A stretch of DNA of 64,000 nucleotides from Mesostigma viride (taxonomy: Eukaryota; Streptophyta; Mesostigmatophyceae; Mesostigmatales; Mesostigmataceae). Below are positions 2,534 to 63,315 of this stretch, in pieces. The number at the start of each line of letters is the position of its first letter. The stretch's first letter is position 1. The position numbers and the translations under genes are program-made. The notes beneath the pieces were generated by a model that worked only from the letters and a program-made list of their open reading frames with translations, ran no database searches and had not been told where the DNA came from. The stretch spans positions 2,496,868 through 2,560,867 of the forward strand of contig RPFO01000050.1 of NCBI GenBank assembly GCA_009746045.1, in the 5' to 3' direction.

Positions 2534-5500
2534 CGTGGCCACCGCCATCGGGTGTGACAGCTCGGCACCGATCAGCCCGATGAGCATCTGGGGCCCTGCT
2601 CAGACAGGGGGACCATCCAGGCACAGTGACCAAATCCGATTCAATACAAGCCATCCATTTGGCCATGGACCCACGTGCCAATGTCCACGCAACAGGCACA
2701 CAAGAGCACGCACAACCATACCCAAAATTAATAGGCATATTTGATATTAGCTGGTGCTTGGGAGATTGCGGGAGAGCCACACACACATTTGGTGGCTGAC
2801 CCACGTGCAGTTCAGGATTGTGGGGGTTCAGAAACCAACACAAGCTGAACAGTTGCATCCACACCCATTCCAGATGAGGCAAGATTCCCACAGAGGCATG
2901 AAAACTGCCACACAGCTGGGAGGCCATTGCGTTCCTTCTACATGGTCAGGCATATGCCTGACGCCCGGCTGCATCTCTTGCCGCGCGTCTCGCAGCCGCA
3001 AGTAGCCAACGATTAGCCGCGCTTGATATTAGAAATATCAAGCGAATATAGTATCATAGCAAATATCCCCCCTACCTTACCTGCTACCTGCTACCTGCTA
3101 CCTGCTACCTGCTACCTGCTACCTGCTACCTGCTACCTGCTACCTGCTACCTTTCGTGCTCACCCTTCCATCGAGGACTACGCACCTACCATACTAAGCA
3201 ACTACCATACACGAAGATTCCCCCTATCGTACATAAACAACACCCCTACCGTTGATGAATAGCCGCCGGCCTAAACATCCCCCCTACTCTGGATGAATCG
3301 CCGCCCACAACCCCCCTACCGTTGATGAACAGCCGCCGGCCTAAACATCCCCCCTACTCTGGATGAATCGCCGCCCACAACCCCCCTACCGTTGATGAAT
3401 AGCCGCCGGCCTAAACATCCCCCCTACTCTGGATGAATAGCCGCCTACTCTGGATGAATAGCCTACTCTGGATGAATCGCCGCCCCGCCATCCTACCGTA
3501 GATGAAGAATCCGACGGCAGCGACGCTAGCGCCGATGGCGAATGCGTTGCCTGCAGGCGCCAGCACAAATGCGAGGATGGACGCCAGCAGTCCGATCTGG
3601 TACCCGATAACGACACGAATACGGTGGCCCTCCATCTTGTCCGAGAGGACGCCCGAGAAGAAGCCGCCTGGTGGGGGAAAGAAGGGGGGGGGGGGGCGAG
3701 GCAGCGAGAGAATAATTCATGAGGTTGGAATGAAAGAGGGTCGGATTGGGAGGGGGGTGGATTGATAGTGGGTCAGAGGGAAGCGGACTGCATTGTCTGA
3801 GGCTAGCTGAACACCTGCTTAGGGTTTAGCCCCTTGCTTATCCGCACAGGTACTTTGAAACTTGTCGAAGGAAAGGGGGGAAGGGAACGGTTCAATGAAA
3901 TTCTTCTATCTAAAACTAGTCGAGCTACCATGGTCCGGATTCTCCCGATTTCTGGCCTGCGCTGGTTGTCTCCTTGATGCTAGTCGATACAAGGGCAAAA
4001 TATATCTAAAAGGTGGACGTGGTGGGGAGCAGGTGAACATGGTCATGGGATGCAGGTTGTGCTACGATGCGTGATGGGTGTGGGATGCAGGTTGTGCTAC
4101 GATGCGTGATGGGTGTGGGATGCAGGTTGTGCTACGATGCGTGATGGGTGTGGGATGCAGGTTGTGCTACGATGCGTGATGGGTGTGGGATGCAGGTTGT
4201 GCTACGATGCGTGATGGGTGTGGGATGCAGGTTGTGCTACGATGCGTGATGGGTGTGGGATGCAGGTTGTGCTACGATGCGTGATGGGTGTGGGATGCAG
4301 GTTGTGCTACGATGCGTGATGGGTGTGGGATGCAGGTTGTGCTACGATGCGTGATGGGTGTGGGATGCAGGTTGTGCTACGATGCGTGATGGGTGTGGGA
4401 TGCAGGTTGTGCTACGATGCGTGATGGGTATGGGATGCAGGTTGTGCTACGATGCGTGATGGGTATGGGATGCAGGTTGTGCTACAATGCGTGATGGGTA
4501 TGGGATGCAGGTTGTGCTACGATGCGTGATGGGTGTGGGATGCAGGTTGTGCTACAATGCGTGATGGGTGTGGGATGCAGGTTGTGCTACGATGCGTGAT
4601 GGGTGTGGGATGCAGGTTGTGCTACGATGCGTGATGGGTGTGGGATGCAGGTTGTGCTACAATGCGTGATGGGTGTGGGATGCAGGTTGTGCTACGATGC
4701 GTGATGGGTGTGGGATGCAGGTTGTGCTACGATGCGTGATGGTTGTGGGATGCAGGTTGTGCTACGATGCGTGATGGGTGTGGGATGCAGGTTGTGCTAC
4801 GATGCGTGATGGGTGTGGGATGCAGGTTGTGCTACGATGCGTGATGGGTGTGGCATGCAGGTTGTGCTACGATGCGTGATGGGTGTGGGATGCAGGTTGT
4901 GCTACGATGCGTGATGGGTGTGGGATGCAGGTTGTGCTACGATGCGTGATGGGTGTGGGATGCAGGTTGTGCTACGATGCGTGATGGGTGTGGGATGCAG
5001 GTTGTGCTACGATGCGTGATGGGTGTGGGATGCAGGTTGTGCTACGATGCGTGATGGGTGTGGGATGCAGGTTGTGCTACGATGCGTGATGGGTGTGGCA
5101 TGCAGGTTGTGCTACGATGCGTGATGGGTATGGGATGCAGGTTGTGCTACGATGCGTGATGGGTATGGGATGCAGGTTGTGCTACAATGCGTGATGGGTA
5201 TGGGATGCAGGTTGTGCTACGATGCGTGATGGGTGTGGGATGCAGGTTGTGCTACAATGCGTGATGGGTGTGGGATGCAGGTTGTGCTACGATGCGTGAT
5301 GGGTGTGGGATGCAGGTTGTGCTACGATGCGTGATGGGTGTGGGATGCAGGTTGTGCTACAATGCGTGATGGGTGTGGGATGCAGGTTGTGCTACGATGC
5401 GTGATGGGTGTGGGATGCAGGTTGTGCTACGATGCGTGATGGTTGTGGGATGCAGGTTGTGCTACGATGCGTGATGGGTGTGGGATGCAGGTTGTGCTAC

Positions 5501-8500
5501 GATGCGTGATGGGTGTGGGATGCAGGTTGTGCTACGATGCGTGATGGGTGTGGCATGCAGGTTGTGCTACGATGCGTGATGGGTGTGGGATGCAGGTTGT
5601 GCTACGATGCGTGATGGGTGTGGGATGCAGGTTGTGCTACAATGCGTGATGGGTGTGGGATGCAGGTTGTGCTACGATGCGTGATGGGTGTGGGATGCAG
5701 GTTGTGCTACGATGCGTGATGGGTGTGGGATGCAGGTTGTGCTACGATGCGTGATGGGTATGGGATGCAGGGTCCCAGGTGCGTCTACTGCTTCGCAAGG
5801 CAACCCTAATTGTCCGCTCTTCTAAGCACGCACTTGCTCTCGCCCCCCCGCTGTAGAAGTGTGTGCACTTGTGCGTACTTTTCCAGGTACCCCTTTCTCC
5901 CTATTCCCCGCTCATCTTCTAGGTGTGCGCACTTGTCCAGGTACCCCTTTCTCCCTATTCCCCGCTCATCTTCTAGGTGTGCGCACTTGTCCAGGTACCC
6001 CTTTCTCCCTATTCCCCGATCATCTTCTAGGTGTGCGCACTTGTCCAGGTACCCCTTTCTCCCTATTCCCCGCTCATCTTCTAGGTGTGCGCACTTGTTC
6101 CCACCCACCCCGCTTTTCCCCGGCGCGCACGCACCTGCCAGGCCTCCAAGCTCCAGCCCGCTGACGAGCGCTGCGGCAGCGGCCGCGTTGGGGAAGCCCT
6201 TCTGCTGCATGACGTAGAAGTGGCTCCAGCTCACCATGCCCTGGCGCACAACGTAAACAAAGAAATACTGGCCACGGCAACCGGGGGGAGGGGCGGGCGG
6301 GGGGGGGGGGGGGGGGGGGGGGCAAGGCAAGGCAGGAGTGGGCAGGCCACAGGAGAGCATGCAAGGCAGGACAATCAACATGGCAGGACAATCAACAAGG
6401 CAGGGCAGGGGAGGGCCGCCGCAACTCCCGGGGGAGCAAACGCGAGGCGAGGTGAGGCCAAGGAAGGCAGGTCAAGTTGTTGCAGCGCGAGGCGATGCCA
6501 GAAGCAGGGCACGGGATAGGGGAGGGTCAGGGCAATGCCTTGCGACGCATGGAGCGGCACACGACATTAGGTCGGGGCATGTGACTTGTGAGCAGGACCG
6601 CCGCTACCAGACCGCGTCCAGCCGCTACCAAACGCAACATGGATACAACGCGATGAATTGAATCGAGGTAATCAGCAAAAAACTGGTCTCGATACTTAGC
6701 ACTCACCTAATTGGACACGCCAGCACGGCAAGAGACAAAAGAAGACCCACAAAATAACACCAGTAATGAACACAATAATACTAGCAACAAGACTTGATGA
6801 TGATTGAACGACGAGCCCACGCACTGATGTGGGCAGCTCCCGGTCACTCTACTGCCTCCTAGTCACTACAGAGCGAGCTAGAAAATTGCTTTAGAAGCAG
6901 GATTCTTGCTTCATACAGCAAGCTAGCCCACCCACCGAGATGGCGAGCGCCCAGATGGCCTTGTTCTTGAGCACGTATTTCACCATGACCTCTGTCATGG
7001 ACAGCTCCTGCCCGGCTGCGTTCTTGGCCTTGGCCTTGCCATCAGAGAGGGCGGGGAGGCCCACGTCCTCGGGCTTGTTGCGGATGAGGAGAAGCGCGAT
7101 CACGCCCATCACGATGCCGATCAGGCCAGGGATACGCATGCCCCAGCGCCAGCCGTAGAGGGAGGTCACCGTGCCCGCCTAGAGTCATCCGGATGGATTT
7201 TGTTTGTGGTGGTGGGATGGGGGGAGGCGTGGGGATGTTGTGTTGATAGGACCACATCCGCGGGAAGGGGGGGGGGGGGGGGGGGGGAGAAAGCGAGAAA
7301 GCATGGGATTGGAGGGAAATGGTAGTCAGAGAACAATTTGTTGCTTTTGATAGAGCAGCATGGGGGAAACGGGAAGCATGGCTTCGACAGGAAAGTTGAC
7401 AGTTACTAGGGAAGTGAGTGGTTGGATAGGGACGCAGTAATTGGTTGTGGGAAGAATTCAAATGGTGGCACATATCCGATAAATAGGAACCGATGCGTGG
7501 GATAGAGACTAATTGAAAATGAAAGAATGAATGGATTGGCTAGGGAAACATGGCTGACTGGCATCAGAGGCATAGCAAGGCCATCGATGATTTCAAAGAC
7601 TAGGACAGCTCGCATGATTTCAAAGAGCAGGACAATGCGCATGCTTCCATACAACAAGACTAAAATTTGGTACAAGACCAAAATGCACAAGCAAAGAGAG
7701 GGATAGGACCAAAATGCACATGCAAGGAGCAGGCCCCACGCACCAGAAGCGGGATCGTGAACCCTCCGACGTTGTTGGCCGTCACCCAGCCCGCCCACCA
7801 GGTGCCGCGCACATTGGACGGATACCACTGGGTGAGCAGCTTGGCGCACGCGGGGGCGCCAAAGCCCTGGAAGAAGCCTGCAGGGGGACGTGGGGGAGAC
7901 GCGCGCAAGGGTGCATAAACATAAGTAAAAAAAAATGCTATACGATTTAGTAAATGCTATACGATATAGCAAACTACTGTAGCATCTACAAAAACATGGT
8001 CACTGTAGAACCGGCATGAACCTGGTCATACCCATGTTACATCGCACGTCACGGCAATGGGAACCCATCCAGGCTTCGCTAAGGCATACTGCCTTTCCGG
8101 CCAGCAGCTGACAACGAACCTGCAGCGTAGACCAGCAAAACCAGTGAACGAGGTCCGGCGTGTATCTATACCTGGAATGCATGTGAGTGACAACCCATGA
8201 ACCAAATGCCCATGCGCACCGCCGGCGGCCCAGACGTAGACTATACCCACCAAACACTACGACCACCTTACATCGCCTGTGTGCCTGTGCGCGAGGAGGC
8301 CAGACAGCCACGCATGCGTGCTATGCCCACGTGTACCCACGCAGCCAGCCGAGTGACAATCACCCAGCCATGCATTCGCGAAAATTACAGTCACCCACTG
8401 CGTCAAAGTACAGTAATTTACAGTTACACATACCGTTGGCGGACCAGACAAGGGAGGGAACACCGCCACACCCAGCGTGTGCCCTAGTGACAAGTCATGA

Positions 8501-11353
8501 TGCATGTGTCATAACAATCATAATCGATGCATACCGTTGGCGGCCCAGACGAGGGAGAGCACACCCAGCGTGCTGAACTGGCCGAACAGCACGTTCAGGG
8601 CGCCGGAGATGATCAGGCCGATGCCAAAGATGGCGCGCGCGCCAACCGCGTCGGTCAGCACGCCGCTGGCAAACTTGGAGAAGCCTGCGGGGGGGCGATC
8701 CATACATACATATATATTAATTACAAGCACATAGACTACGTCACGTGGGTACCAATAAACACATGCTGAACAGGCACTGTCAGGTATACAGTTTGCGCGC
8801 CGAGGTGTGCGTCCGCTGGCAAACTTGGAGAGGCCTGCGCTGAGGCATAAATTACGGGCTGTATGTAGATCACGGATCGGACGACGTTTCACGTCCAGAC
8901 AAGTCCAGTGATACATGGGAAGCTAAATACATAGATCTGATACCTCGTAGTGATACTGATACATGGGAAGCTAAACACATAGATCTGATACCTCGTAGTG
9001 ATACTGACACATGGGAAGCTAAACACATAGATCTGATACCTCGTAGTGATACTGACACATGGGAAGCTAAACACATAGATCTGATACCTCGTAGTGAAAC
9101 TGATACATGGGAAGCTAAACACATAGATCGGATACCTCCTAGTGATACTGATACATGGGAAGCTAAACACATAGATCGGATACCTCCTAGTGATACTGAT
9201 ACATGGGAAGCTAAATACATAGATCGGATACCTCCTAGTGATATGAGAGAAGGTATGCGGATCAAGCGTGGTCATGCTGGCACCAGGCAACCTTGGAGAA
9301 GCCGGTGCGATGTCCATACACCTGCCTATTAGTATGCGAATACCGGGACTTGACTGCGAAATAGTATGGTTAGTGGTAAAAGTCGGGGAGGGTTTGCGGC
9401 CGCCGCTCGTGAGAAGACCGCGCTTGGGATGCCAACAGTTCTATTCACCTGCGTCAGCGAGTCAAAGTACTGTGTCCTAGTGACCGACAGGAGGCGCCCC
9501 CAGGACGTGATGACTCTTCTTGGGTAAGGTGCCTTGTGGAGTATAATAATGTACTAGTGACCGACAGGAGGTGCCCCGAGGACGTGATGACTCTTCTCGG
9601 GTAAGGTGCCTTGTGGAGTATAACAGTGCACGCAACCAATGGCGAGGGATGGGGACACGAGACGGTCGATCACTCAATCACTTGCATGGGCATCACTGAT
9701 CAATACCACATCAAAAAGCCCTAGTATGTGGCACTGCATTCGTCTTGAGCGACGCGACAGACGCGAATAAGATCACAGCCGGCTCGAGCTACCATGGTCC
9801 GGATTCTCCAGATTTCTGACCTGCGCTGGTTGTCTAATGGATGTCTTATCTATGTAAAATAAAGATATATGTATAGTAGTAATCTTTACATACTACATAA
9901 AAGCTGCGGCCCCCCTACCAGCATCGCGGGCGGGACTCACCATACATGATGGGGAACACGGAGGTGACGCGGCCAATGTCCTGCATCGACAGGTTAAGGC
10001 TCTCCTGAGACACGTGGACAGGGTGGCAGGCAAGACATATTCACAGGTCACATATGTTGTACAGGTTATAAACTCACGGGTGGGGAGGCGTACAGAAGAG
10101 AGGGGAGTAGGAGAAAGTAGGGCCCGTGTGATCAAAATTGTAGGGCATCTGTGTTGTTTTTCAACGTGTGAGTTTGTGAATGGCATGCCCACGCATGACC
10201 AAGCACCAATGCAAGGTTGATCACAGAAACAAGGTTTGGCTGATCAAAGTCAACTGGACGGGAGGATGTATTAGCAGGAGGGTGTATTTGAATGGACACG
10301 AGGATGGGCAGCAAGGGGGATGCGTGGACGGGAGTGATGTGGTAGATGGGACCCACAGGAAGTTTAAGAACACTGTTGGGCAGTTTGGATCAAGAGCGTG
10401 GGTGCAGGAAGGACCTTTCAATTTTAAAGCTTTGAAACATGAAGACCAAAACAGCACGACGGCTTCCCTCCCCTGCTGCACGCATTTATACATCGACAGT
10501 ACTTCAATCAAGTGGAGCAGAGACAATACTTCAAACAAGTGGAACAGAGATAGCCAAAGTTAAACACTGCTTCTTGGACAGCGGACGGGTGCAGGGGATG
10601 AATCACCGGAGACCGGCCTATCAATGAATGCCCGAAGTGGGCAGCACCCATGAGGTCTGCCCGTGCCAGGGAGCAGCATAGGGATACAGACCGTGCTTCA
10701 CACTTGGACACTTTCATGCAGTCAAGTCGGTGAGAAAATAGACTCCGAGTTCGGAGTCGGAGTTGAGTTGGAAAGAGGCATGCGGAGATTGAATAAGAGG
10801 TATACCTCCAGCGATATCTGATCGGTATACCTCCAGCGATATCTGATCGGTATACCTCCAGCGCTATCTGATCGGTATACCTCCAGCGATATCTGATCGG
10901 TATACCTCCAGCGATCGGAATGGTGCAGCCATAGGGGGGGGGGACGTCCCAGCAAAATTGCCCACTCCAACTTAGGTCCAACGTGGCTCTGTCAGACGTG
11001 AAGTGAGCTCCAAAATCGCCCCGGCGCCAGAATTATCAAAAAGGTGTGCGCGCAAGTTGGCTTTCTGAGGTTGGCGTGAGGAAAATAGAACCGGAGTGCG
11101 CTCGGCAAACACACCCGGCGCCTGGTTTTAAGGAAAGGAGCGCGCTCACCGTGAGACTAGGGATACATAGATATTGGTCCGGCGGTTGGTCTTACAACCC
11201 GGAGTGAGGTACTTGTGAAACTAGTAATGCACATATACGTACTACGGTAATTATACGGTGCATAATTTACAGTACGCGTGGCGAAACTGGGAGTGATCTA
11301 GGTGACCTCAGATACAAGTCCTGACTATGCCAACTCTCTCTGCTGCCCCTGTG

Positions 11354-19996: not shown

Positions 19997-20020
19997 TACC
20001 CCACACCCACGCATGCACGC

Positions 20021-27654: not shown

Positions 27655-30600
27655 TTACAAGATGCCCCACGAGTGCAGCATCCCCTTCCCCGTAACCATC
27701 TCCACCGCCACCCACATGAGCGCGGCAAACATGGCCAGCCGGCCGTTCCAGGTCTCCGCGCTCTTGGTCCAGCCCCACTCCCACAGGTTGACCGGCGAGG
27801 GGATACTCTGCCGCCCCTTGTCAAACTGCTCCAGCAGTGATGCCACGCTCGTCATTGCGGGGACCAGCATGTTGCTCGACTCCATCTCCACCTGGACCTG
27901 GAAGCAGGCACACAAGCATAGTGATGATCATGTGACGTAGTTAGTTTGTAGATTAGGGAAACAAACATAACTTCAAACACGTGATGCTGTAATTGCATCA
28001 CTCCCCGGAAAGGAGAACTTTTGCGGTTGGACTATAGGTGTCAGCTGGCGATGCCTTAGGATCAGGAGACGTCCCTCCTATAGTCAGCAAAAGTGGGTGC
28101 AAGAGGTCCCCAGTTCGATTCCGGCCTGGATTCATTTGCAGATCGCGTTTTCCGCGGACCGGCACTGAACGCAAATGGTTTTCACCTTTGCGGCGTGCCA
28201 AATCAGAATAACTTCAAACGCGTGATGCTGTAAGTTTGCTGACTGCAGGTATGCACAAAGTAACAGACTTGAACGAAAATGGCAGTCTCCACCCGGGCTG
28301 GAAAGAAAAAGAAAAACAACCGAAATCCATCAATTTATAAACTGTAAACCTTGTTACTTGTCTCAACCGGGACAAGAGAAAAAGTTAAAATAATATTTTA
28401 AAATATTTATGTATCCTGATGTATACATTTGTGAATCTAAACATAGGTTGTGAGCCGTAAAACCCCTAAATACTCACCCTTCACCAACCCTTTCACACCC
28501 CCACCACACCACCATACCACATCATGGCGGGGGTCACCACAGGCATCGTGCAGATAACACCCGTGGCACCAACGACAGCGATCGTCATATTTACCATCGG
28601 CACTCGCCTCGGGGTCAACGTGATCAAGTTCCCATATTATGTACTCTTCACATGCGGAACCCGACAACCACCCCCCTGTCAAGCATATCTGACCCCGATG
28701 TTATGTACTCACCATGACATGGCCTCAACAAAGAACAGCGCGCCAATGGGATAAGCGTTATACTATAACACTTGGTGCAGTACTTATTTAACCGCTCACC
28801 ACGGGGTCGGGCGTGGACATGGCCCCCACAAAGGGCAGCGCGCCGATGACCGCGTCCGCCAGGTCATCGATGAACTTGCCGTTGGTGTTGAGCGCGGGGA
28901 CACGGCGCCAGTTGACCACCCCACTCTCTAATGCCAGCTCGCGGTACTCCATGTCGATCTCCTCCAGCGTCTCAATGTGCTCGCTCACAAAGCTGTGGGG
29001 TGGGCAACGTTTAGGAAAAGTTAGGCGGCGGCGGCGGCGGCGGCGGTGGTGGTGGTGGTGGTGGTGGTGGTGGTGGTGGTGGTGGTGGTGGTGGTGGTGG
29101 TGGTGGTGGTGGTGGTGGTGGTGGTGGTGGTGGTGGTGGTGGTGGTGGTGGTGGTGGTGGTGGTGGTGGTGGTGGTGGCGGCGGTGGCGGTGGTGGTGGT
29201 GGAGGCATGTGCACGAGACAGCAACGTTACACAATGTGGGCAGAAACGTCTCAACGTGCTTGCTCGCAAAGCTGGAATTACAGTGGAGGGGGGAGGGAGG
29301 GAAAGGGGCGAGGGTGTGGGTGTGTGGGGCGAAGAGCGCACATGCCTGATCAAGGAACATTCACGCAGAGTGGACAAAGCGATTATAGTCCCGGGGGGGC
29401 GGGGGGGGGGCATTCTTGCAAAATTGATTGTTGGGAAGCACCTGCCCGACTGCCTCGCCCTCCCACCCACCCACCCACCCACCCACCCACCCACCCACCC
29501 ACCCACCCACCCACCCACCCACCCACCCACCCACCCACCCACCCACCCACCCACCCACCCACCCACCCACCCACCCACCCACCCACCCACCCACCCACCC
29601 ACCCACCCACCCACCCACCCACCCTCCCTCCCTCCCTCCCTCCCTCCCTCCCTCCCTCCCTCCCTCCCTCCCTCCCTCCCTCCCTCCCTCCCTCCCTCCC
29701 TCCCTCCCTCCCTCCCTCCCTCCCTCCCTCCCTCCCTCCCTCTCTCTCTTTCCCCCGTTGCGTTACACCCGTTGGGTAGCACAGAACGTGCACGCTTGTT
29801 CGCGCCTACCTGATGGGCACCGCCAGCAGGTCCTTGCACCCGTTGGCCCCTAGCTCCACAATCGTCTCGTCCGTGTACGGTCGCAGCCACTCGACGGGGC
29901 CCACGCGCGACTGGGGGGGCGGGGCGGGCCATTTGAGCAAGGAGCGTGATTAGGGGGGTGGTGGTGGGGGGGGGCGGAGGAGTGATTTGAGCAGGCAGAA
30001 GCAAAATTTGGAAGACGGAGGGAGGCGGGTCAGATGGAGCAGCAACGAAATTGCAAGGGGTAGAGCTGAGCAACCACATTCAGAGGATAAAACACGGGCT
30101 AAGCACGGGTTAATGCAAGGGTAAGTGCACGGGTTGAAGCACGGGTTAAGGTGGAGGATCGGTAAATAGCCCAACTTAAGGCGTGAATGATCTGGTACCC
30201 GGTTGTAGTATCTAAGCAAATCCGTTCGAAGCTCGCACTAGCGCACTAGCGCAAACTAAATATCTCACAAATGGGTAGCAGGAACACGAGTGCGACATCC
30301 AAACAGAAGACTCATGCGCTTGCTAGCTCCTTGGCTTGCTCTGGGACAAGACAGCCCAGTTTAGCCACAAAAGGGGTGCAGTCATTCACACCTTCAGTTG
30401 GGTTCGAGGTTTTGGAGGGGTCAACCCAACTTAAGGCGTGAACCCAACTAAAGGCGTCAATGACTCTACTACACTCTACTAATTTGAACTAAAGATATTA
30501 AAACATACATTCTGAACTATTTCGAACTTAGAACGCCGACCCAACTATCCTATTCGACCCAACTTAAGGCATGAACACAAATTAAGCCGACCCAACCTAA

Positions 30601-33600
30601 GGCGTGAATGACTGTACCCCAAAAGATACTTTTAAAAATCGTAAGCATGAATGGGTTTCGTTGCTCTAAATTGCATCGTGTTCCAAACCCCACGTCTTTT
30701 GGATGTTACTAGCTAAAGCTCTGTTTTTTTGGTTGAAATATTCACCACTTTTATGGGTTTTGCAACTTTCCCACCCTGGCATATGCACAAAATTTTGTTT
30801 GGAGGGCTGTTCTTCTGCATCCGAGTAACATCGTTCATTTGGAGTTGCATATGCATGTAGCCCTTTTTTTGAGGTTGCTAGCTCAAGCTCTTGATCTTAG
30901 GGCCAGAAATACCCCCCAAAGCAGATTTAGTACCATAAAAAATAGCAAATCTTCTCTGTTTGACCTGGTTTTGGGTAGGAAACATCTCTGTGAACGACCC
31001 AACAAGCATGTACAAGAATATCTGAAAAAAAAAGTTAGCCACCTATAATGGCAATTTTTGGACTGTCCACTAGTTGCTACCTACAAACCAAATTACTGCT
31101 CGAGCTTTGTGTCCTACACGCGCTTCTAGATTCTTACATGAGACCTTTCGAATGAGCTATCACACCCTTTGAACAGATGTCGCTGGGTATCATGGGTCGG
31201 AAAACCACCTGCCAGGTGAGGTATTCTTCGATCCTCGTGATCCTCCACCTTAATACTTTTGGCACCAATGCATACCAGCTAGGTTCCGGTAACAGCATTA
31301 AGCAACCCGATCCTCCACGTTAATGCACGGGTTGAAGCACAGGTTAATGCACGGGTGGAAGCACGGGTGGAAGCACAGCTTAATGCACGGGTGGAAGCAC
31401 AGGTTAATGCACGGGTGGAAGCACGGGTTGAAGCACAACTTAATGCACGGGTGGAAGCACAGGTTAATGCACGGGTGGAAGCATGGGTTGAAGCACAGCT
31501 TAATGCACGGGTGGAAGCACGGGTGGAAGCACAGCTTAATGCACGGGTGGAAGCACATGTTAATGCACGGGTGGAAGCACAGATTGAAGCACGGGTTGAA
31601 GCACAGCTTAATGCACGGGTGGAAGCACGGGTGGAAGCACAGGTTGAAGCACGGGTTGAAGCACAGCTTAATGCACGGGTGGAAGCACATGTTAATGCAC
31701 GGGTGGAAGCACGGGTGGAAGCACAGGTTGAAGCACGGGTTGAAGCACGGCTTAATGCACGGGTGGAAGCACGGGTGGAAGCACATGTTAATGCACGGGT
31801 GGAAGCACGGGTGGAAGCACATGTTAATGCACGGGTGGAAGCACGGGTGGAAGCACAGGTTGAAGCACGGGTTGAAGCACAGCTTAATGCACGTGTGGAA
31901 GCACCGGTTGAAGCACAGCTTAATGCACGGGTTGAAGCACAGGTTAATGCACGGGTGGAAGCACAGGTTAATGCACGGGTGGAAGCACGGGTGGTAGCAC
32001 ATGTTAATGCACGGGTGGAAGCACAGGTTGAAGCACAGGTTAATGCACGGGTGGAAGCACGGGTTGAAGCACAGCTTAATGCAAGGGTTAAAGCACGAGC
32101 TGAAGCACAGCGTAATGCACGGGTAAAAGCACGGGTTGAAGTACAGCTTAATGGACGGGTGGAAGCACGGGTTGAAGCACATGTTAATGCACGGGTGGAA
32201 GCACAGGTTGATGCACGCGTGGAAGCACGGGTTGAAGCACAGCTTAATGCATGGGTTAAAGCACGAGCTGAAGCACAGCTTAATGCACGGGTAAAAGCAC
32301 AGGTTGAAGTACAGCTTAATGGACGGGTGGAAGCACGGGTTGAAGCACATGTTAATGCACGGGTCCAAGCACAGGTTAATGCACGGGTGGAAGCACGGGT
32401 TGAAGCACAGCTTAATGCATGGGTTAAAGCACGAGCTGAAGCACAGCATAATGCACGGGTAAAAGCACGGGTTGAAGTACATGTGAAGCACATGATGAGC
32501 CGGTGCTACACAGGAACCGCAGGTCATTCCTTCCTTGATCAATTGGCTCATTCATTAATTGAAGGCCTACGGCTTCGCACGGTACCCCCCTAGGGGGGTG
32601 GCATAATAGGGGTTTGGCTTGCAATAATGTTGGCATGCACAATAGGTCATGGGGAGGTAATGGGAACGATCTGGGACCCACCTGTTTCTATCAAGTATAC
32701 TGCAGCGCACACGATACCTATATCTATGTTCATATGTATATATCTTAGCACACATTTAGTACACCTCGAGCACGCCCGCAAGCATACAGCCTACCTGGCA
32801 GGCGAGCGTGGGCGCGTATGGGAACCCACCCTACAGCTATATTACACTCTAGCGCTTTAAAGCGCGCCCGCATACACAGCATCAATTAAGCAACACAATT
32901 AATTTACACGTGACTGCGTCACGTGAGCATAAGTCCTCACTGGGATGGAGATGGAATGGGATGGGTGGATCTAGCTGTCTAGTTACCAGGGATTCGATTG
33001 AGGTTTTTGCGCTAAGCGCCATGTGGCATATAGAACTACGGAAACTAGCTTAGGCTCGGCCAATTTGTGGCTTTAAGCCAATAATAATTGGGCTAGGCAT
33101 GGCCACGTGTGGCCACTGGCGGGCGGGCAAGTCAGCTAACTTCCCTGGTCACACAATGCTCCCTTCTAAACATGTCACCTGCCACTGGCGGGCGCCCTTC
33201 CGAGTTGCTGGACACGTACTCTACTCTCGTTACTGGCCAGTCGGCTAGTGAGCGTCAGGCAACCAACGCACGCGAGTCGACAGCCACGGGGCACTGGGCC
33301 ATTGTTGACTGGTGGAAGCTACTCGTAGTACTACTAGGGAGACTTGAGGCGGAGAGCCGGCTGGAGCTCAGATTGTCACAGCCAAGTGTGGCGTCACTAG
33401 GTAGTAGCTTTGGATTCAACACGGCCATGATGTGGTGACCAGCAATTGCCAAGTAGCACAGCACCGCCACTTCGTGGCATCTCGGGAACTGTAACTTGGG
33501 GGTGACATCGCCACAATTTGCTAAAACAGGCGCTACACCGCCACATTTGGCCAGCAAACGCCACTAATCAAAACACCGCTAGTTACTAGTTCTACACAGC

Positions 33601-36600
33601 ATAAGGTACCTGGTAGGCGAGCGTGGACACGTTCTGGAACCCTCTCTGCCGCAGCTTGGCCTGGATGAGCGCGACGCAGTCCTCCATCTCGGCCTTGTAA
33701 GGGTCGCCCGCATCGCGCACGTACGAGACAGGCACGCCATGTGCGCTGTAGAAGATGCGTACCTGCAGGACAGGGGCGCGCAGGGGACCAATCGGTTTGA
33801 CATGTATAGGCAATTAGAATCCATGCCTGGTTGATGTGAGCTGACATGCCATGCCACTCGAGCTGTTAAAGATGCGCAACTGCGTGTGAGGAGAGGGGGA
33901 CAACAAGATGAAGTATGCCGTACCAAACATAGGGTATAAAGTAAACAACATGAAATTTATGGTAAATAATATGCAGTATGACCACAAGATGAAGTGTGTA
34001 ACCCACGCTATAGGGCTGACGTCAAGCTGACATGTGGCGCGCCTGATCTGGAAGATGCACACATGCGAGTCTGTGGCGAAATTTCGTGAGATGGTCGAGT
34101 GAAAAATGCCAGCCCGATGTGCTGTAAAAGATGCACACCTGCACACGACGAGAAGGCAACATGTGGGCACCATCCCACGACGAGGACTAGGCACACTAAT
34201 ATACATTGTAGACGACACCAATGTCAGCCGGGCGTGTGAAAACGTGTGCACCGATGCACACCTGCACGAGAGAGGCACTAGAGGCAGCAGGATTACATCT
34301 ACATCTATACACCCACATTATTGGCAGGCTCTTTGATCTCCTCCTCCTCATCTACGACCTGATTGATCCCACCATACCCACATCAGCAGAGCCCCCACCC
34401 ACCCACCATCTTCTCGGGCTGCTCAAACTTCTTGATCTCCTCCCCTTCACATACAACCCCCCCACACAACTCAACCTCCACAAAAGCAACCCCTGTCTCT
34501 ACTATTCCAGCCCACCTTCTCAGGCTGCTCAAACTTCTTGATCTCCTCCTCGATCAGGTCCGCGTTGGCCTCGACGTAGCCCTTGCGCTGGTACCAGCTG
34601 GGAATGACCGTGTGCTCCATCTTGGCCAGGTAGTCGTCGTCACGGAACAGGTGCTCCAGCAGCCGCAGCGACGAGCCCGATGTGGAGATGGAGAACTGTG
34701 GGTAGAGTGGGAGGACGACCAGCTTGGACACCTTGTCCGCCTTGATCTGGTGAGGGACGGGGGAAGGCGGGGGCATAGGTGGAAACTCGAGTATACAGGG
34801 TTGTATCAGCCAGCACGACCAGCTTCGACACCTTGTCTGCCTTGGTCTGATGGGGGGAGGTGGGGGGGGTGGGGTTGGATACGGAAGGGAGCTAGACAGA
34901 CGAGGGGAAATTCCTACGAGAACAAATCGCTACAAAAACAAATCGGCCCAACTCTGGATGCCCAGCGTGGGTACATGGTACCCCAAGGTTTGAAATGGGC
35001 AGAGCGAAAAAAAGCTCCATTGCCTTCCCCGCCGACAGGTTCCACTGGCAACCACAAACCTACATCATGATCACAAAGTGACAAGTCAAGGTGAGTGACA
35101 TGTCACGACCGACTACAAGCATTTGGACATCACCCCAACAGCTCACCTGCTCAATGACCTCCTCTATGAAAGAGCTTCAACAACGGACAAAGGTAAACGG
35201 TCGAATTTTGAGAAAACACAGGCATACAGGCTGCACAGGCGCCGCACCTGCTCGATCGCCTCATTACACAGGCTCCCGCACCCAGACCATGACATCAAGG
35301 TTGCAACTCATCATCGTAAAGGGCACAGTGTGCAGGCATCGCACCAGCTCGATGACCTTCCCCGCCAACAGGTTCCGATAGCCAACCACGGTACTAAAAG
35401 TGACATGTCAAAAATGACGTACCACGACCAACTACAACTAACCACTTGGACACCGCGTGGACAGCTCACCTGCTCGATCGCCTCCTCGGTGAACGGGTTC
35501 CAGTAGCGCATGCCCACGTAGACCTTGGCCTGCAGGCCGCGCGCACGCAGCGAGGCCTGCAGCGCCTCTGCCTGCTCCTGCGTGATGCGGCGCAGGGGGG
35601 AGCCGCCGCCGATGGCCTCGTAGCCTTCCCTCGACTTGGGCGCACGCAGGGTGGAGATGATCTGGGCGAGTGGGCGCTGGAGGAAGCGGAGGGCGGCCGG
35701 CAGCCGGATGATATCCTGCCAACGGGGGGGGAGGGTGCGAAGAATAAACAGAGTGTTAGAGATATGGAGAGATAGAGAGAAATATTACAAATAATTGGAT
35801 AAATGGTTTTAGTAAGTTTTTTTTAATTATTGTATAATGGACTCAGAAGGGGGAAAGAGATACAGATTGAGGGGGGAAAGAGATAAAGAAAGAGGTGGCG
35901 GGGGGAGCCCGGGGGGCAGTTGGAGTGGGGTGAAGGTCAGTAAAAAAAAAAAAGTTGCACAAGGCATTTGGTGGGAATTAGAAGGGGTGAGGCGATCCGG
36001 GATGAGGGTGGATGAGGGGTAAGGCAAACGGCAGGGGACTAAAAAGGGTACCCAAGGGGTGGGGTGGGATGGGCGCGAGGAAGGGGAAGGGGAAGAGGGG
36101 GTGGGGGGGTGGGGGGCAGACGAAAGAAGAGACACAGAGGAACCAAAGTGGGTGGATGGGTGGGCCAAAAGGGGAAAAGGTCCATTGATGTATCATCCAC
36201 TGACAATAAAAGGGGGACAACATGAAGACGAGTCCACTGACCCACCCAACCACCTGGACTTGGTGTGGACATGGCCCCATTCATTTGCAGAAAGACAACA
36301 GGGATGCGCGCTAGCCCATTACATGCTCACGTCATGCTTACATGCTCACATGCCCCGCTTGCCCGTCCGCCTGCCCGCCGAAGCGGCATCCCACCCACCA
36401 ACATAATAATGACCTAACAGGAAAATGCCTAGCTTTCCTGGACTTCGTGGTGGGAGCAAAAGTACCCTCAATAAACTATGTCGTGAACTCAGCAAATGGC
36501 GGTCTCAAATGATGTAAAAAAGAAGAGGAAAAAAGGCGAGCTAACTTGATGGAAATGAAATACAAAGAGCAGAGAGAAATAAAAAATAAAAAATAAATTA

Positions 36601-40448: not shown

Positions 40449-43400
40449 ATTATACCTCGTGAGTTGCGTCGCAATGGTGTTGCAGTGCGCCGCTGCTGAA
40501 ACAGGTGGGTTGTATGGGGAGCATGTTCCTAGGAAGGCGGGGGGGGAGGGGGTACTAGGCTTCGCGAGGGTGTCAGACCCCTCGTCTGATGGTGACCGTT
40601 ACAGTGGCCATGATAGTGACCATGGCCATAATGCTAGGCTTCACGAGGGCCACCCCTTCAAGATTTACAGGGGTTGCTCTGCTTAGTTTCAGGGAGCTGG
40701 GATTATTCCTCGTTGGATGTGTCGCGATAGTTGTGCAGCACGCGGCGGACGAGGCAGGTGGGTGGATAGGGCGATGCGTGGGCCAGTTGCTAGACTTGTC
40801 GCGATGGTAGTGGAACGGTGTCTACCTGGCATCTTTGACTTGTCGTGACGTGGGTGGAGCAAATGAGACCGGTGTAATTGGCGCGTGTGGATGGACTACT
40901 GTGATCTAGGTGTTTCGCGGTACTGCTGCAGGTGAGACAGGTCGAGGAAAGGGGTGTGAGGCAGGTCGAGGATGTGAGGCAGGTTGAGGGTGTGAGGCAG
41001 GTAGAAGGTGTAAGGCAGGTCGAGGATGCAAGGCAGGTCGAGGATGTGAGGCAGGTCGAGGAAAGGGGTGTGAGGCAGGGGGTAGGGTGCCTAGCGGAGC
41101 GGACAACCCTCCCCGTGGCAGGGGGTGGGGTCGTATCCCTCCTGTGTAAAGAGACAGGTTCGGGTGGGGTGGTCTCCCTCCTGTGTAAAGAGACAGGTTC
41201 GGGAAGGGTCGTATCCCTCCTGTGTAAAGAGACAGGTTCGGGTGGGGTGGTCTCCCTCCTGTGTAAAGAGACAGGTTCGGGAAGGGTCGTATCCCTCCTG
41301 TGTAAAGAGACAGGTTCGGGTGGGGTGGTCTCCCTCCTGTGTAAAGAGACAGGTTCGGGCGAATGAGGGTAAACGTAACCTTTCAGCGACACAGGGGGGT
41401 TGGCGGGGGGGTGCGTAGTCGTGTCGCTGGTAACGGCCGCAGGCGGATGCCTAGCGGATGAGACAGCGTGGGTGCGGTGGGGTGGGGAGGGGTGGGTGGG
41501 GTGGGGTGGGGTGGGGTGGGGTGGGGTGGGTGGGGTGGGGTGGGGTGGGTGGGTGGGTGGGTGGGGTGGGGTGGGGTGGGGTGGGGTGGGGTGGGGTGGG
41601 TGGGGTGGGGTGGGGTGGGTGGGGTGGTGGGGTGGGGTGGGGTGGGTGGGGTGGGGTGGGGTGGGGTGGGTGGGGGGCGGCGGGCGGGGCGGGGCGGGCG
41701 GGGCGGGGCGGGGCGGGGCGGGCGGGGCGGGGCGGGGCGGGGCGGGCGGGGCGGGCGGGGCGGGGCGGGGCGGGGCGGGCGGGGCGGGGCGGGGCGGGGG
41801 GCGGCGGGGCGGGGCGGGGCGGGCGGGGCGGGGCGGGCGGGGCGGGCGGGGCGGGGCGGGCGGGGCGGGGCGGGGCGGGGCGGGCGGGGCGGGGCGGGGC
41901 GGGGCGGGGCGGGGCGGGGCGGGGCGGGGCGGGATCGAGTTGCACAACAAGACCACGAGGAAGCGAGGGTTTTATCGCGGCGGATGGTGTCTTCTTTTCC
42001 ACACTAGTAAAATGTTGATGACACTTTGTTCCTGAGGTTGTCTTTTCTGTGTTCATGCAAACCATGACGTCGTGTACCACAGCCCAGCACCAGCTGGCGA
42101 TAAAGATCGGCGTGGCGGTTGCCAGATTGCAGGATGGGGGCATCGTGCACGGTGACCTTACGACGTCCAACATGATCCTCAGGGCCCCCGGCAACGACCT
42201 GGTAGGCTAGGTCGCTCGCCCCATGCAATATCCCCTGGGAAGCTTCACCATGTAGTTGGACCTTCAAAGCTGGTTGTGGTAGCTATCGCAGGGTGGTAGG
42301 ATGTTCTGGATGGTCGGGCTGCACATGTGTTGGCTATTGGTTCGAAAGTTGGATGGATTCCAAACGTGTAGGGCTGGCCCGCACGGCAGCGCTCGCCCAG
42401 CACACCACGCGCGCCTGCCTTGCTTTCCTAATTATGGTTATTACTGTCTTCCTTTGCCATCGGGTTATTGCTGCCTTCCTTTGTAACAGGATTATCACTG
42501 GCCTCCTTTGCAATGGGATCGTTACTGTCTTCCTTTGCCATAGGATTACGACTGACTTCCTTTGTGCTGGTAGGAAAAAAAAAAGTGATGATGATGCTGG
42601 ACTTGCAACACATCCGAGAGGATCCCCATATAGAGAGAAGACGAAAGCCCCCCCCCCCCCCCCGCACACACACACGCTACAAGAAAATAAAATAAAAAGG
42701 ATGGAAACCCCCGATTCCCTGCAGTACAATTCCTGCGCACGCTGCTTACTATCTTCTCTTGCTGGTTGGGTCGATGCTGCTGCCATCAAGAGACCATCGA
42801 GAAGGGACGAAGCACACCAGGCGCATGCCCTTGTTGTGGATGTCGTTGTTAGCACACTAAGGCCACGCGTCGTTGTTGAGTGGCCGTGGAATCGGCGCGG
42901 CCTTCCGCTGCATTGGTGACAACTTTGTCGAGGCCAGGCCACGTGGTATAAACATGAATCCTACGCAAACGTAACTGCCCTGGGGCTCTCGCAACGTAGG
43001 CGCGAGGCCTAGGAATTAATGAATGGATGGAACCAGGCGGAGGCGTGTGAAGGGATGTAACAAGGCGGAGCCCTGCCACAACCCACGCCCTCATGGTGCC
43101 GCGACACATGGAACCCACCATAACCTACTCCGCAGGTCCTCATCGACTTTGGACTGGCCCAGAACTCGACACTTCCTGAAGACAAGGCGGTGGACCTCTA
43201 CGTGCTCGACCGTGCACTCAGCAGCCTTCACACGGATTGCCCCAACATGGTGCGTGTGATCGCCAGCACACGCCATCACAGGACTACGGGCCCCAACATG
43301 GTGTGTGTGTGTGTGTGTGTGTGTGTGATGACCACAATGGTTTATGGCCCCCGGTGGTTCGTGCAAGCACGACATCCATACGATTTACCACCCCAGCTTC

Positions 43401-54741: not shown

Positions 54742-57700
54742 TTATGAGGACGTCGAGGCTCCAGAGCTGGACTCGCCGGCGCCGACTTCTTGCTCCTGCG
54801 GCGCTGGGACGCCCTGGCCCTCGCCCTGCACACGGGGGAAGTTACCGCCAGCGAGCCACAAACGTTGTGCATGGATTAGACAGCAAGCATAATAACATTA
54901 GTTTGCGAGCGTCTGGATGATGGGAAACAGCCAACCCCCGCATGGTTCTGCATGGCTTATTCCAACTCTGTTGGCTGACAGGGAGAGAATCCGGGAGAGA
55001 TCAGTATTGTCGTCTCCTGCTTGCAATGCAAACGGCTGGGGCCCATACTTCACGGCTCATGGTTGTAGGTAGCCTCTATTCAAGCGCACAGCACATGAGC
55101 GCGACAACTAGGATGCGGAGTCCAGGCTCAAGGGCTACCTTTAGGCTCGAGGGCTGTCGGAGTGACACAGGCTGCCGGCATGACAAGAACCCCCACTGAA
55201 AGTACGCTCCTGGCGTACGCAAGCACGGCCACCGTCACAGAAAACCCAGTCTGCGAACGCAACCAGGGCATCAGGCATGATAGTCGATGGCATTGCCAAC
55301 ACAACCAGGGCTACCAGCATGACAGTCATTGTGTTGCCAACGCAACAAGGACTTGCAAGGATAGTAACAAATCGTAGAGAAAGTGGCGGCTCACCTCCAC
55401 GCCGAGCGTGTTGACGCGCGACGACGATTGCAGGTATTGCCGCACATAGTCGGACGCCCAATCCTCGGGGACACCGTACTCTGCGCGTGGGCGACCGACG
55501 GGTGCATGGGCATGCACAAGCATAGGCATGGCTCTTCCAACGTCAGCCCCACATGCACGCCATGCACGCCATGCACGCCATGCACGCCATGGACACAGGT
55601 GGTGTGGCCCCGACACCAGGCGCGCGGTGGCACAAGACGGCCGGGTGCAGGCGTCACCATGCCAGGAGTTCAACACGGATAAAAATAGACAACATACATG
55701 CATGGCATGTGCCCGATCGGCTAGGTGCTGGTACCAAGCTTGCGGCATCCATAGCAGGCAAACACCACCGCGTGCTCTTGCATGCATCACAGGCACACAA
55801 GAGTGACCGTGGGGCTGCCATGCACGGACGGCGAGCTTGCCAAGCACGGCAGCATCAACAAGAACACAGGGTAATTGTTGGGCAACCACGCACGAATGCA
55901 TGACCTTTGCACCCGGGGAGAGGCACAAGGACAGCCAAGGGTGCAAGAACAGGCAAGTGGTGATGCATGGCCAGGAACACGCATCGCCCACACACAAGAG
56001 CGCACACGCGCACAAGGGCGACCACCCACCGGCAGCCAGATGCAGCTATTCGCACAACAGCTGCATACAAGCAGCGCGAGGCATGCATGCATTGCAGGGT
56101 GTACCCACCAGCAGCGAGGTGCTGCACGAGCCGCTGCGCGTCCTCCCTCTGCTGCGCGTACGGCGTGGTCGGGTCAATGAACGCATCGCGCACCTCGCGC
56201 ACCTTCTCCCGCACAAACGCCTCCATCGTGTCGGTCAGGCCAGACGGGTTCTCCCGCATCTGGTGGATGAGCTGTTGGGTGGGAGCGAGGCACAGCAGTG
56301 ACGTTCCACAACCGTGGAAGTCGCTTTCTACACGGGTTAGCGTCTTCTCGAGGGTGAGCTGTTCAGGGTGAAAGGCAGAAGAAGGGTTCAGGGGGGTGGT
56401 TCAGGGGGGTGCCTTGTGAAGCGGTAGTAGAGTGGCTCACAGCAGCGGAGTGATGGCGGTGCGCGGGTCAGCATTCGGCGGATCAGCACGGGTTGTTTGA
56501 CGATCCACCGCGATAGGATGTACCAACGAGTGGGATGAACGAGACATGGAACTTTGACAAGTTCATGGGGGGGGAAGGGGGGGGGGGGCATGGGCGCGCA
56601 TCTGGTGGACGTGCTGTGTTGGTCCCCCTGCCGCGATGATCCACAGCAGGGGGGTGAAGCAATGCCACGCATCAGCTTGGGGGTATTGGGAGGGCAGGGG
56701 AGTGTGGGGACGTACGCCATTGGATAGAACAGCTGCTCACAGTGTGGGGTTTACGGCGGGCAGAAGCAAGGGGGAAGGGGGGAGGGGAAGCAGAGTGTCC
56801 GCACCAATTTAGAACATCTTCCACCTACAATCTGCCGCTTTGGGGGCACCCACGCGGACTCACTAGCACAAGGCTGCCAGCATTGTGTACATTGCTAGTT
56901 TTAGTAGAGTACAACTAGCAGTGCGTGTCTTTATTCCACCCACGTTCTGCAGCTGCGTGAGCTTGTTGACCGCGCTGTCCCTCTCCTCCGCCAGCTGCGC
57001 CGCCATGGTGGCCATCGAGACGTCGCTGTTGCGCGCCGCCCACATCTCCTCCAGACGGCGCTGGAGCTCCGCCATCTGGGGAGGGGGTGGGGTGGGGGCA
57101 GGGATGGGGGGAGGCAAATATGGGTTAGTGGTGAAGGGGTGAAGCAGGTGTGAGACAAAGGGGGGCGGAGAGAAAATACAAGCGTTGCAGCCCCGCCATC
57201 TGGGGGGGGGGGGGGGGGGGGGCGGAGGATACCAGTGCAGGTAATGGGGGGGGGGGGGGGGGGGGGGGAGAGCGCATGGAAACGCTGCCATCACGGGGGA
57301 GAAACAAGAGGGGGAGAAAGGGGGAAACAAGGGGGTCAAGACGGGGGCGAGAAGCAGGGGGGGCGGTGTTAGAAGGGGGTGAAGACGGGGGCGAGAAGCA
57401 GGGGGGCCGGTGTTGAGGGGTGAAGCCAACGCGAGACGTCAGGGGAAGGGAGCGCTGGAGCTCCGCCATGCGGCGACAAGGGGGTTGGGGGCAGGAGTGG
57501 GAGCAAATGTGAGACAGGTGAGGGAGGGTGCGGGGGAGGAGGCGAGCGCGGATCAGGGAGCAGCATGGAGAGGAGAACAGCTGCTACTAGTCTACATATT
57601 ATAGTGCGTTGATGTAGTATGATATAAGATATGATATAGTATGATATATTCTGATTTGGCACGCCGCAAATAGTGAAAACCATTTGCGCTCAGTGCCGGT

Positions 57701-60700
57701 CCGCGGAAAACGCGATCTGCAAATGAATCCAGGCCGGAATCGAACTGGGGACCTCTCGCACCCACTCTTTGCTGACTACAGGACGGACGTCTCCTGATCC
57801 TAAGGCATCGCCAGCTGACACCTACAGTCCAACCGCAAAAGTTCTCCTTTCCGGGGAGTGATGCAAGCCAGTCGGATTTGTACTAGATAAATCATTCGAG
57901 ATCTGTGTGTGTAGGAGTACTACACACGTGTCCACTCGAGACTTGTTCAGTCTCGAAATGTGAAACGGGCTGAACACGGCTGGAACCTTCTTAGAAGGGG
58001 GCGTAGCCGGTACTATCGAGATCAGCCAAGCGTATATTCTGATTTGGAACGCCGCAAATAGTGAAAACCATTTGCGCTCAGTGCCGGTCCGCGGAAAACA
58101 TAGTATGATATAGTCTACATATTATAGTGTGTTGATGTACAGTCATTCACGCCTTAAGTTGGGTTCAAGGTTTTACTCGGGTCAACCCAACTTAAGGCGT
58201 GAACCCAACTTAAGGCGTGAATGGCTCCACTAAAGTGTACTAATTTGAACTAAAGATACTAATCCTTCTACTCTAACCTACTTTGAACTTAGAATGCCGA
58301 AATACTATTCGACCCAACTTAAGGCGTGACACACAACTTAAGCCAACCCAACTTAAGGTGTGAATGACTGTACTATGATATAAGCCCATGCGCATGACAC
58401 CAAAGTACTTATATAGTATGATAATCGATGTGTGCAAGACCGGTGGCAAGGGTGCGCATGCGATGGATGGGCGTGTGTGATATTCGATGTGTGCAAGACC
58501 GGTGGCAAGGCAGCGCTTGCGATGGATGGGCGTGTGTGATAATCGATGTGTGCAAGACCGGTGGCAAGGGAGCGCATGCGATGGATGGGCGTGTGTGATA
58601 TTCGATGTGTGCAAGACCGATGGCAAGGGAGCGCATGCAAGGGATGGGCGTGGAGTGTAGGTGATGGAGCAGGACGGGGCGGAAAGACAGGATAGAGGTT
58701 GGCATGCAGGGTGTATTGAATGGGGCACCCCCGTTTCAACATCCCACTCTAGATGCGCATAGATGCCATGGTCTCGATTTCTGGCCTGCGCTGGTTGTCT
58801 CCTTGATAATCCACGCATCTAGAGTAGTCAAAACTACTGGTCTCCCCACCCACCCACCTGCCGTTTCACCACCTCCAGGCATGGCCATGAAACGCCTAGT
58901 TCCCATTCACCAGGCTGCCCTTTAACAAACATCGCTACATCCTTGCGCTAACAAGGCTACATTTTTGCGTTCACACTACTATTATTAGCTCCATACTCGT
59001 AACTAAACACCGCCACACACAGAAAAACTAGCCTAAAAGGCTAGTAGTAGAAGTATGCCACCAACCTCGAGGCGCGAGCCGTCGCGCTCGGCCACCAGCT
59101 GCATGGCGACCGTCTCCAGCGCCTCGTTCTGGTTCTTGAGCTCCGTCACCTCGGACGCCAGCATGGCCTCGATGTTGGCCATGCTTGCGTTCATGCTCGC
59201 CACCGCCGTGCGCAGCGCCGCCACCTGGGGTTGGCACACGGGAACAAAGACAAGGTTGGGGTTGGCGCACGTGAAAAAGACAAGGTCATGAAAGGGAGGG
59301 AGGGGAAGGGGAGGGAAGGAAAAGGGATGGAAAGGGAGGCATAATAACAGTGCCGCCACAAGGGGTGGGCGCCAACGAAAACCAGCTAAGGGAAGGAATG
59401 TTGGAAAAAGGGATGGGACGGGAGGGTATGACGAGGGAAGGTTCCGGAAGGGAAACATAGATAAGTAAATTTATATTAGTTACCTATGTAGGGGGGGAAG
59501 GGGAAGGAAAGGGGGAAGAGGCAGTGCATATGCAAGCACATGGGGAAGGGGAAGGAAAGGGGGGGAAGGGGAAGGAAAGGGGGGGAAGGGGAAGGAAAGG
59601 GGGGGAAGGGGGGGAAGGGGGGGAAGGGGAAGGGATGCCCGAGGGGTGGCAAGTAGTTGCAAACAAAAGGAAATGACAGTGTGCCTTGCCCACAACAACC
59701 AATAACGTGCTTTGCCAACCGCTTGACCCACCCTGAGAAACGAGTCCTCGCGGTTGCGCGCCCGCACAACACACGCATGTCCCACAACAAGCGATCACCG
59801 TGACCCACAGCTTTTGGTCCATCCACTTACCTCCCCCCACCTCGAGAAATGCACCGCCACAAACGTATCCGCACCCACCCTACCCAACCACACGCCACGC
59901 CACGCCCACACCTTCACCCACCTCGAGGAACGCGTCGTCACGTTCGCGCGCGAGTTGCTCCGCCACCATCTCCAGCGCCGCCTTCTGCTCCATCAGCTGC
60001 GCCATCTGAAGGGTGGCCTTCTCTGCCTCTGACACCTGGGTTGGGGGGAGGATGGGAGGGGACAAGCAGTAAGCGAAAATGGGGGCCAAGGGAAGGGGGG
60101 GGGGGGGGCGAAGGGAAGAGGGGGGGGGAAGACAAGCGAAGGGACAAAGGGGTGGGTGCGTTAAAGGCGAGCAGATGAAAGGTATTAACTGAAGCTATGT
60201 AAGCGATGCGAAGGAGTGGCTGGGTAATGTTTCATATTTGAAGAGAGACATTGCATGTAAAAAAAAAAAAATGTATACATTGGGTTTCTTGCAAGCAGGA
60301 TCCATTTGCCCTGCACCGCAGCGCCCTTGCCAACGAGTACATCATGCCCCCAGAGCGTAAAGAATGCCCCTTCCGCCCACCTGCCGCAGCACCCTTCCAG
60401 CAAGAAAAGCACAATCCAGCCACGGCACCCCGGCCGCAGCGCCATCTCAACGCGGGAAAGACACGCACATCGCAGCCCACCTGCCGCAGCACATCATCAG
60501 AGAGACACACTCCCACCACCACCCACCTGCCGCAGGGCCATGTCAACATGGAAAGTGACCAGTTTGACACACCCACCTGCCGCAGGGCCTGCGCGCGCTC
60601 CTCCTGCAGCGCCTTGACGGCAGCGCGCAGCCGCGCCACCTCGCCCGCCTCGTCAGGCGTGCGCGTGCGCATGTCCTCGAGCGAGGCCATGAGCGCGTTG

Positions 60701-63315: not shown

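Follow-up and report, generated by a model that had tools for sequence, protein, structure and literature searches.

Diverged copies of coding-exon ends in the adjoining introns of the streptophyte alga Mesostigma viride

Introduction

Duplications that span a splice junction are in print as single cases. The human CBS allele c.844_845ins68 carries a duplication of 68 bp over the intron 7/exon 8 junction, the upstream exon copy of which is removed by splicing (PMC2630376), so that the junction duplication is harmless in that human case. In potato RdRp, a tandem duplication over an intron-exon boundary made a new intron (PMC4974935). Direct repeats of 4-30 bp have been tied to intron borders by Rogers and Bendich (2025), in each case pairing the 5' and 3' borders of a single intron (PMC11782384). 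Small tandem duplications, direct and tens of bp in size, are produced by Pol alpha-primase at breaks with 3' overhangs, as described for Cas9 breaks in mammalian cells (PMC8355091), and introners provide a bulk route of intron change (PMC9860276).

Mesostigma viride is a unicellular streptophyte alga with a genome of 441.8 Mb and a mean intron length of 1142 bp; the available part of its genome paper treats repeats in introns, and exon-edge copies are no topic there (PMC6947507). Here we report that about one fifth of the tested coding-exon ends of this alga have a decayed copy, referred to below as an echo, just inside the adjoining intron. The echoes share with the CBS ins68 type the direct orientation (23/125 edges versus 1/125 inverted) and a copied segment that reaches the junction (18/24), but CBS ins68 is one polymorphic allele of one gene, whereas in Mesostigma many junctions per gene set and many ages are involved. 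As in potato RdRp, duplication extends over the intron-exon boundary, yet the Mesostigma copies appear to lengthen existing introns and to leave decoys rather than make a new intron. The tie between direct repeats and intron borders is also that of Rogers and Bendich, although the echoes are mostly 20-75 bp long and match a single border to the interior of the intron it bounds. The products of Pol alpha-primase resemble the Mesostigma duplications in size and direction, and break fill-in by this enzyme would be one candidate source of them. Introners and echoes have in common that introns change in bulk; for the one spacer searched (1/24), no other genome copy was found. The first-pass annotation of this DNA, which knew of no description of such copies, stands as far as systematic one-sided copying of exon ends is concerned, for none is found in the titles and abstract openings of the open-licence literature searched. 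It does not extend to the single human and plant junction duplications (PMC2630376, PMC4974935) or to the border-to-border repeats, which are present in that literature.

Results

Genes of the analysed window

The window, which is the whole 64,000-nucleotide stretch analysed, belongs to the 440 Mb Mesostigma viride assembly of 2243 contigs. Four genes contribute 32 exons and 28 introns inside it, with GT-AG in 28/28 introns. The predicted ferrochelatase and transporter are 100% identical to EukProt jgi/Mesvir1/21671 and 21668, respectively, and their exon models were taken from these Mesvir1 proteins, while the BUD32 and CURT1/CAAD-like models were built by hand. The joined frames were open, as checked before a 1-3 base refinement of the transporter (OPA) and ferrochelatase edges. 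The transporter (OPA/hexose-phosphate-type) was assigned to the OPA family by hit names, KEOPS kinases are among the PDB matches of BUD32, and the CURT1/CAAD-like gene has a weak CAAD match under the Pfam cut-off. The ferrochelatase has a C-terminal LHC-like exon (27658-27897), which we take to code a plant-type LHC/CAB-like helix.

Several repeats and element-like sequences lie in and around these genes. Positions 1-2334 hold a satellite of GACGAG, GACGAT and GAT units, with the last exons of the transporter beyond it; an exact peptide search of the next 10 kb past the satellite did not find these exons. One transporter intron contains a 35-bp unit repeated 49 times (4046-5771) and a 54-bp unit repeated four times (5870-6098). 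A repeat of ~240 bp with inverted ends (TTCACGCCTTAAGTTGGG) occurs in two introns (30376-30617 and 58137-58373), has more than 30 further genome copies at 87-90%, and seems MITE-like in our reading of its structure. Diverged open frames resembling retroelement remnants (16061-21570 and 46921-48072, with a DNA identity of 62-72% between them) flank the ferrochelatase and BUD32 genes; a Pfam scan of two such frames gave no convincing match.

Exon edges are copied into the adjacent introns

The copies identified in the four genes are given below with their sources and the evidence for each.

8530..8565, minus strand: donor edge of transporter exon 4, source (blastn self match, p=0.003)
8429..8464, minus strand: intron 4 copy of this donor edge, 70 bp in, with GTATG retained (36 bp, 89% identity, score 28)
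8663..8696, minus strand: acceptor edge of transporter exon 4, source (edge alignment and shuffle test)
8813..8846, minus strand: copy of this acceptor edge, AG retained (edge alignment)
3237..3518, minus strand: 70-bp repeat (TRF 3237-3445), homology crossing the transporter exon 8 donor at 3497 (exon part p=0.10)
35459..35502, minus strand: donor edge of ferrochelatase exon 2, source, junction 35470 (p=0.003)
35013..35382, minus strand: three copies of this donor edge, with echo junctions at ~35345, 35248 and 35147 (alignment)
34712..34749, minus strand: acceptor edge of ferrochelatase exon 3, source (shuffle test)
34812..34849, minus strand: copy of this acceptor edge, with an 11-residue peptide like that of the exon (alignment)
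34512..34549, minus strand: donor edge of ferrochelatase exon 3, source (shuffle test)
34406..34443, minus strand: copy of this donor edge, 33/34 exon bases identical, flanks unlike (alignment)
33843..34270, minus strand: decayed copies of the acceptor edge of ferrochelatase exon 4, which starts at 33762 (two scored, ~34101-34143 and 33843-33898; the rest seen by eye)
32781..32838, minus strand: copy of the ferrochelatase exon 4 donor edge (33610) (alignment and shuffle test)
29247..29274, minus strand: copy of the ferrochelatase exon 6 acceptor edge (28992) (alignment and shuffle test)
28716..28748, minus strand: copy of the ferrochelatase exon 6 donor edge (28800) (alignment and shuffle test)
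40478..40786, plus strand: two copies of the BUD32 exon 3 donor edge (40247) (alignment and shuffle test; a third alignment, in a G-rich repeat, is excluded from the count)
43290..43309, plus strand: copy of the BUD32 exon 5 donor edge (43249) (p=0.010)
60520..60536, minus strand: copy of the CURT1-like exon 3 donor edge (60577) (p=0.007; more short copies by eye)
59714..59860, minus strand: two copies of the CURT1-like exon 4 donor edge (59922) (alignment and shuffle test)
57182..57501, minus strand: two copies of the CURT1-like exon 6 acceptor edge (57075) (alignment and shuffle test)

Exon edges of 40 bases were aligned to the adjacent intron and to 300 dinucleotide shuffles of it. At p<=0.01, 14/56 edges stand out against the shuffles (0.56 expected), spread over 12/28 introns, versus 0/56 inverted edges (4/56 at p<=0.05). 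The same orientation of the copies, proposed in the first pass, is thus borne out, as are 13 of the 14 edges named there, BUD32 exon 5 barely so. The remaining one, transporter exon 8, does not stand out in its exon part, although the homology of its 70-bp repeat crosses the junction. The ferrochelatase exon 6 donor passes in addition to the edges first listed. When the same test was repeated with 200 shuffles, 14/56 edges, 1/45 far edges, 3/82 mid-exon segments and 1/56 inverted edges reached p<=0.01. A second test compared 30-base exon tiles with at most 1200 bases of adjacent intron and 100 dinucleotide shuffles, and z>=4 was reached by 12/56 intron-touching, 1/56 far-edge and 3/150 mid-exon tiles (reverse-complemented: 1 adjacent, 0 far, 0 mid). 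Exon centres therefore do not match as often as exon edges, and the claim of edge copies is not refuted by them. For 15/56 edges the best score comes from the adjoining intron and not from any of the unrelated introns tried, and nearly all copies cross the junction when 40 intron bases are added to the alignments. Collectively, the presence of exon-edge copies in neighbouring introns is confirmed.

Matches within introns are also mostly direct. Intron tiles reach z>=4 against their own intron in 57/642 unmasked tiles and in 315/976 with repeats included, versus 9 and 21 inverted; the targets lie on both sides here, so these counts are not directly comparable with the edge test. By these counts, local duplication is general.

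Echoes recur in chaperonin and kinesin genes

Eleven chaperonin loci outside the window were taken from Pfam PF00118 matches (L041-L055 without CCTk, a near-duplicate of CCTj that enters none of the counts). Of the 58 matches, 52 were used; the six dropped were one in a single-exon gene, one that stood isolated and four that contained internal stops. The chaperonin and kinesin models combine Pfam hits with splice-site scores trained on the 28 introns of the window; targets shorter than 120 bp were passed over, as were chaperonin acceptors scoring <3 and donors scoring <4.5.

At p<=0.01, 9/69 chaperonin edges pass, with 1/69 far edges, 7/172 mid tiles and 0/69 inverted edges; four of the seven mid tiles lie in one exon, CCTe 6005, and inverted mid tiles pass in 3/172. 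Two kinesin stretches give 3/6 and 1/4 edges versus 0/6 and 0/4 far edges (4/10 versus 0/10), with mid tiles passing in 1/14 in one stretch and in one of the 15 shown at p 0.01 in the other. For the window and chaperonins together, 23/125 edges pass (donors 15/67, acceptors 8/58) versus 2/114 far edges (Fisher 1e-5), 10/254 mid tiles (8e-6) and 1/125 inverted edges, and all sets pooled give 27/135 edges and 2/124 far edges. Coding ends without a splice site pass in 1/13, which does not differ from the 23/125 edges (Fisher 0.47); at n=13, this count is compatible with a general frozen-edge effect as well as with a splice-linked one.

Some of these repeats are young. The exon part of the repeat at the CCTe exon at 6005 is identical across 60 bp, CCTh carries 76-bp repeats at a young stage, and the kinesin exon 2 copy matches at 53/53 bases, 30 of them intronic. 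Two chaperonin gene copies (L053 and L054), either haplotypes or a recent segmental duplication, are 98% identical with an indel-to-substitution ratio of ~0.2 (21 indels, 5.6 kb), and a 43-bp tandem duplication, intronic and away from the junction, is present on one side only. The pair also differs by a 3.1-kb insertion flanked by an apparent short target duplication.

Patches, not tandem families, are in excess at exon ends

In a survey of 210 kb with short-period repeats masked, 422 direct versus 12 inverted self matches were counted within 2 kb (as hits, not independent events), and their density peaks at 40-120 bp separation. Matches at 30-300 bp separation were grouped into 112 families and classed by the ratio of homology to period as tandem (>=0.9; 55), patch (<0.6; 45) or between (12), and their placement was tested against 214 exon ends. 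Tandem families lie at exon ends in 12/55 cases, versus 13.6 by random placement, so that duplication itself is not aimed at junctions, which corrects the first-pass reading of duplication across splice junctions. Patch families do so in 19/45 cases, versus 4.7 at random and at most 11 in 2000 placements, a count that includes annotated ends and tblastn matches only. The two classes differ with a Fisher value of 0.03 (0.10 with the first annotation). Since tandem families are at chance and patches in excess, duplication is even along the sequence and the junction signal resides in the patches.

Among the patches first filed as lying elsewhere, 7/25 are near unannotated chaperonin exons, versus 11.5% of random placements. 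Reading of the translation and a CCT zeta comparison brought out further exon-end patches. Pfam supports two of the six open frames close to patches; CCT zeta exons near patches are supported by PDB comparison, and a CCTc exon weakly so (best E 0.19).

Homology extends past the exon part in 5 of the 18 junction sides over a stricter echo threshold and is absent there in 13; alignment adds two kinesin echoes with such homology. When tandem duplication and decay were simulated at indel-to-substitution ratios of 0.2 to 8, 67-81% of the detectable echoes kept unit-wide homology. Through the same repeat pipeline, the simulated patch:tandem ratio comes to 0.44-0.55 for exon ends and 0.39-0.57 for introns. 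The observed ratio at exon ends is 19:12 = 1.58 (binomial 0.003), and away from exon ends it is 26:43 = 0.60, close to the simulation. A roughly threefold patch excess at exon ends over the duplication and decay model is therefore likely to be real, in an estimate that depends on the assumed unit sizes and constant ages.

The geometry was described in 24 patch echoes, 14 of them drawn from the echo list and 10 being donor-end patches at newly read chaperonin exon ends. The copied segment ends exactly at the junction in 18/24, which is the geometry demanded of tandem duplications, although 10 of the 24 had been chosen as donor-end patches. The spacer measures 48-72 bp in 13/24 and <=260 bp in 21/24. 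A genome search with the ferrochelatase exon 3 spacer, one of the 24, found itself only, and such a lack of matches does not prove a sequence rare.

The copies drift at a roughly neutral rate

In the 24 patch echoes, mismatches amount to 81/602 (0.135) at codon positions 1+2 and 57/302 (0.189) at position 3, a ratio of 1.40 (bootstrap 0.93-2.16); an earlier echo set gave 0.132 and 0.209. By our reasoning, a ratio of ~1.7-2 would be expected if the copy drifts freely and its exon changes at most synonymous sites, and a much higher one if the copy is strongly conserved, so the ratio observed makes strong constraint on the copies unlikely. The retention of GT/AG by many copies, remarked on in the first pass, holds for 20/26 of the best junction-covering copies in window and chaperonin genes; this fraction of 0.77 versus 0.75 expected at 13.5% drift per base indicates that decoy sites are neither visibly kept nor purged. 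The copies thus appear to drift at about a neutral rate. Kept copies have a median donor score of 8.2, versus ~10.5 for real window donors, and the term decoy sites applies to them in sequence terms only.

Discussion

We consider it probable that short local direct duplications arise along the whole genome, and that those spanning a junction survive and then drift neutrally. This reading starts from the observed copies, their direction, spacing, drift and recurrence, from which we infer how the copies are born, that those in exons are purged and that splicing uses the site next to the body of the exon. Breaks or pairs of nicks tens of bp apart may be filled in and joined, and small tandem duplications would result, in some cases perhaps with filler. 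Within an exon, such a duplication would alter the protein and be purged. A duplication spanning the junction would enlarge the intron only, the exon body keeping its own splice site, and would be tolerated because this original site is still available; the annotated proteins of two window genes do use the splice site beside the exon body. The copy would then drift neutrally while selection freezes the exon, so that exon ends could serve as a slow reference against which old duplications stay recognisable, and repeated rounds would lead to longer introns. Local tandem duplication with decay, as inferred in the first pass, agrees with the young repeats, the direct bias and the neutral drift; the patch excess and homology past the exon part in just 5/18 junction sides speak against it. 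That inference thus holds for part of the echoes. The roughly threefold excess of short exon-end patches and the 48-72 bp spacer cluster fall outside the duplication and decay model and are not accounted for by it.

A second, exon-end-bounded process, to which we give a minor share of belief, could copy 20-75 bp of exon end with a few intron bases, mostly 50-130 bp into the intron. It might be a form of break repair with filler (like a long target-site duplication) or a splicing- or transcription-linked junction event. It would explain why patches (19/45 versus 4.7 expected) and not tandem families (12/55 versus 13.6) gather at exon ends, the missing unit homology in 13/18 junction sides, the common spacing of the patch echoes and the placement of 7/25 elsewhere-filed patches near unannotated chaperonin exons. 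The ferrochelatase exon 3 spacer, matching only itself, points the same way for 1/24 spacers, with the reservation given above. Against it, the excess depends on simulations in which unit sizes were assumed and ages taken as steady, and the Fisher value for patch versus tandem is just 0.03, or 0.10 with the first annotation. We know of no exon-end-bounded copying process that gives direct copies only. It is doubtful that Mesostigma has a junction-linked process, perhaps transcription- or splicing-coupled and apart from tandem duplication, by which exon end and splice site are re-copied as a bounded patch ~100 bp into the intron; if it were true, exon ends would be both the source and the clock of intron growth.

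That the echoes are functional, as decoy or regulatory splice sites or splicing enhancers held by selection, is improbable. Many of them have GT/AG with fair site scores and some code the same peptide as the exon, but the retention of 20/26 equals drift, and the codon-position ratio of 1.40 means that they diverge about as fast as the synonymous sites of the exon. Still less credible is a reading of the echoes as traces of intron birth, in which an AGGT exon segment is tandemly duplicated. Intron origin by tandem duplication is in print (PMC4974935), yet under this model the upstream exon end should reappear next to the acceptor, at the opposite end of the intron, whereas the copies adjoin their own junction with spacers of <=260 bp in 21/24 and introns of mostly >=500 bp. 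Chance, low complexity or assembly artefact we regard as very nearly negligible, for although the window introns are rich in simple repeats, the controls (shuffles, inverted edges, far edges, mid-exon segments and unrelated introns) stay close to expectation, and most copies are diverged, unlike assembly duplicates.

The echoes have two consequences for Mesostigma. Its introns hold plausible splice sites beside decayed coding sequence, which is a warning for gene prediction. Intron lengthening is difficult to trace, since the sequence of introns decays until it can no longer be recognised; at these junctions one half of each duplication is kept by the conserved exon end, so that the births, ages and losses of lengthening events may become countable genome-wide.
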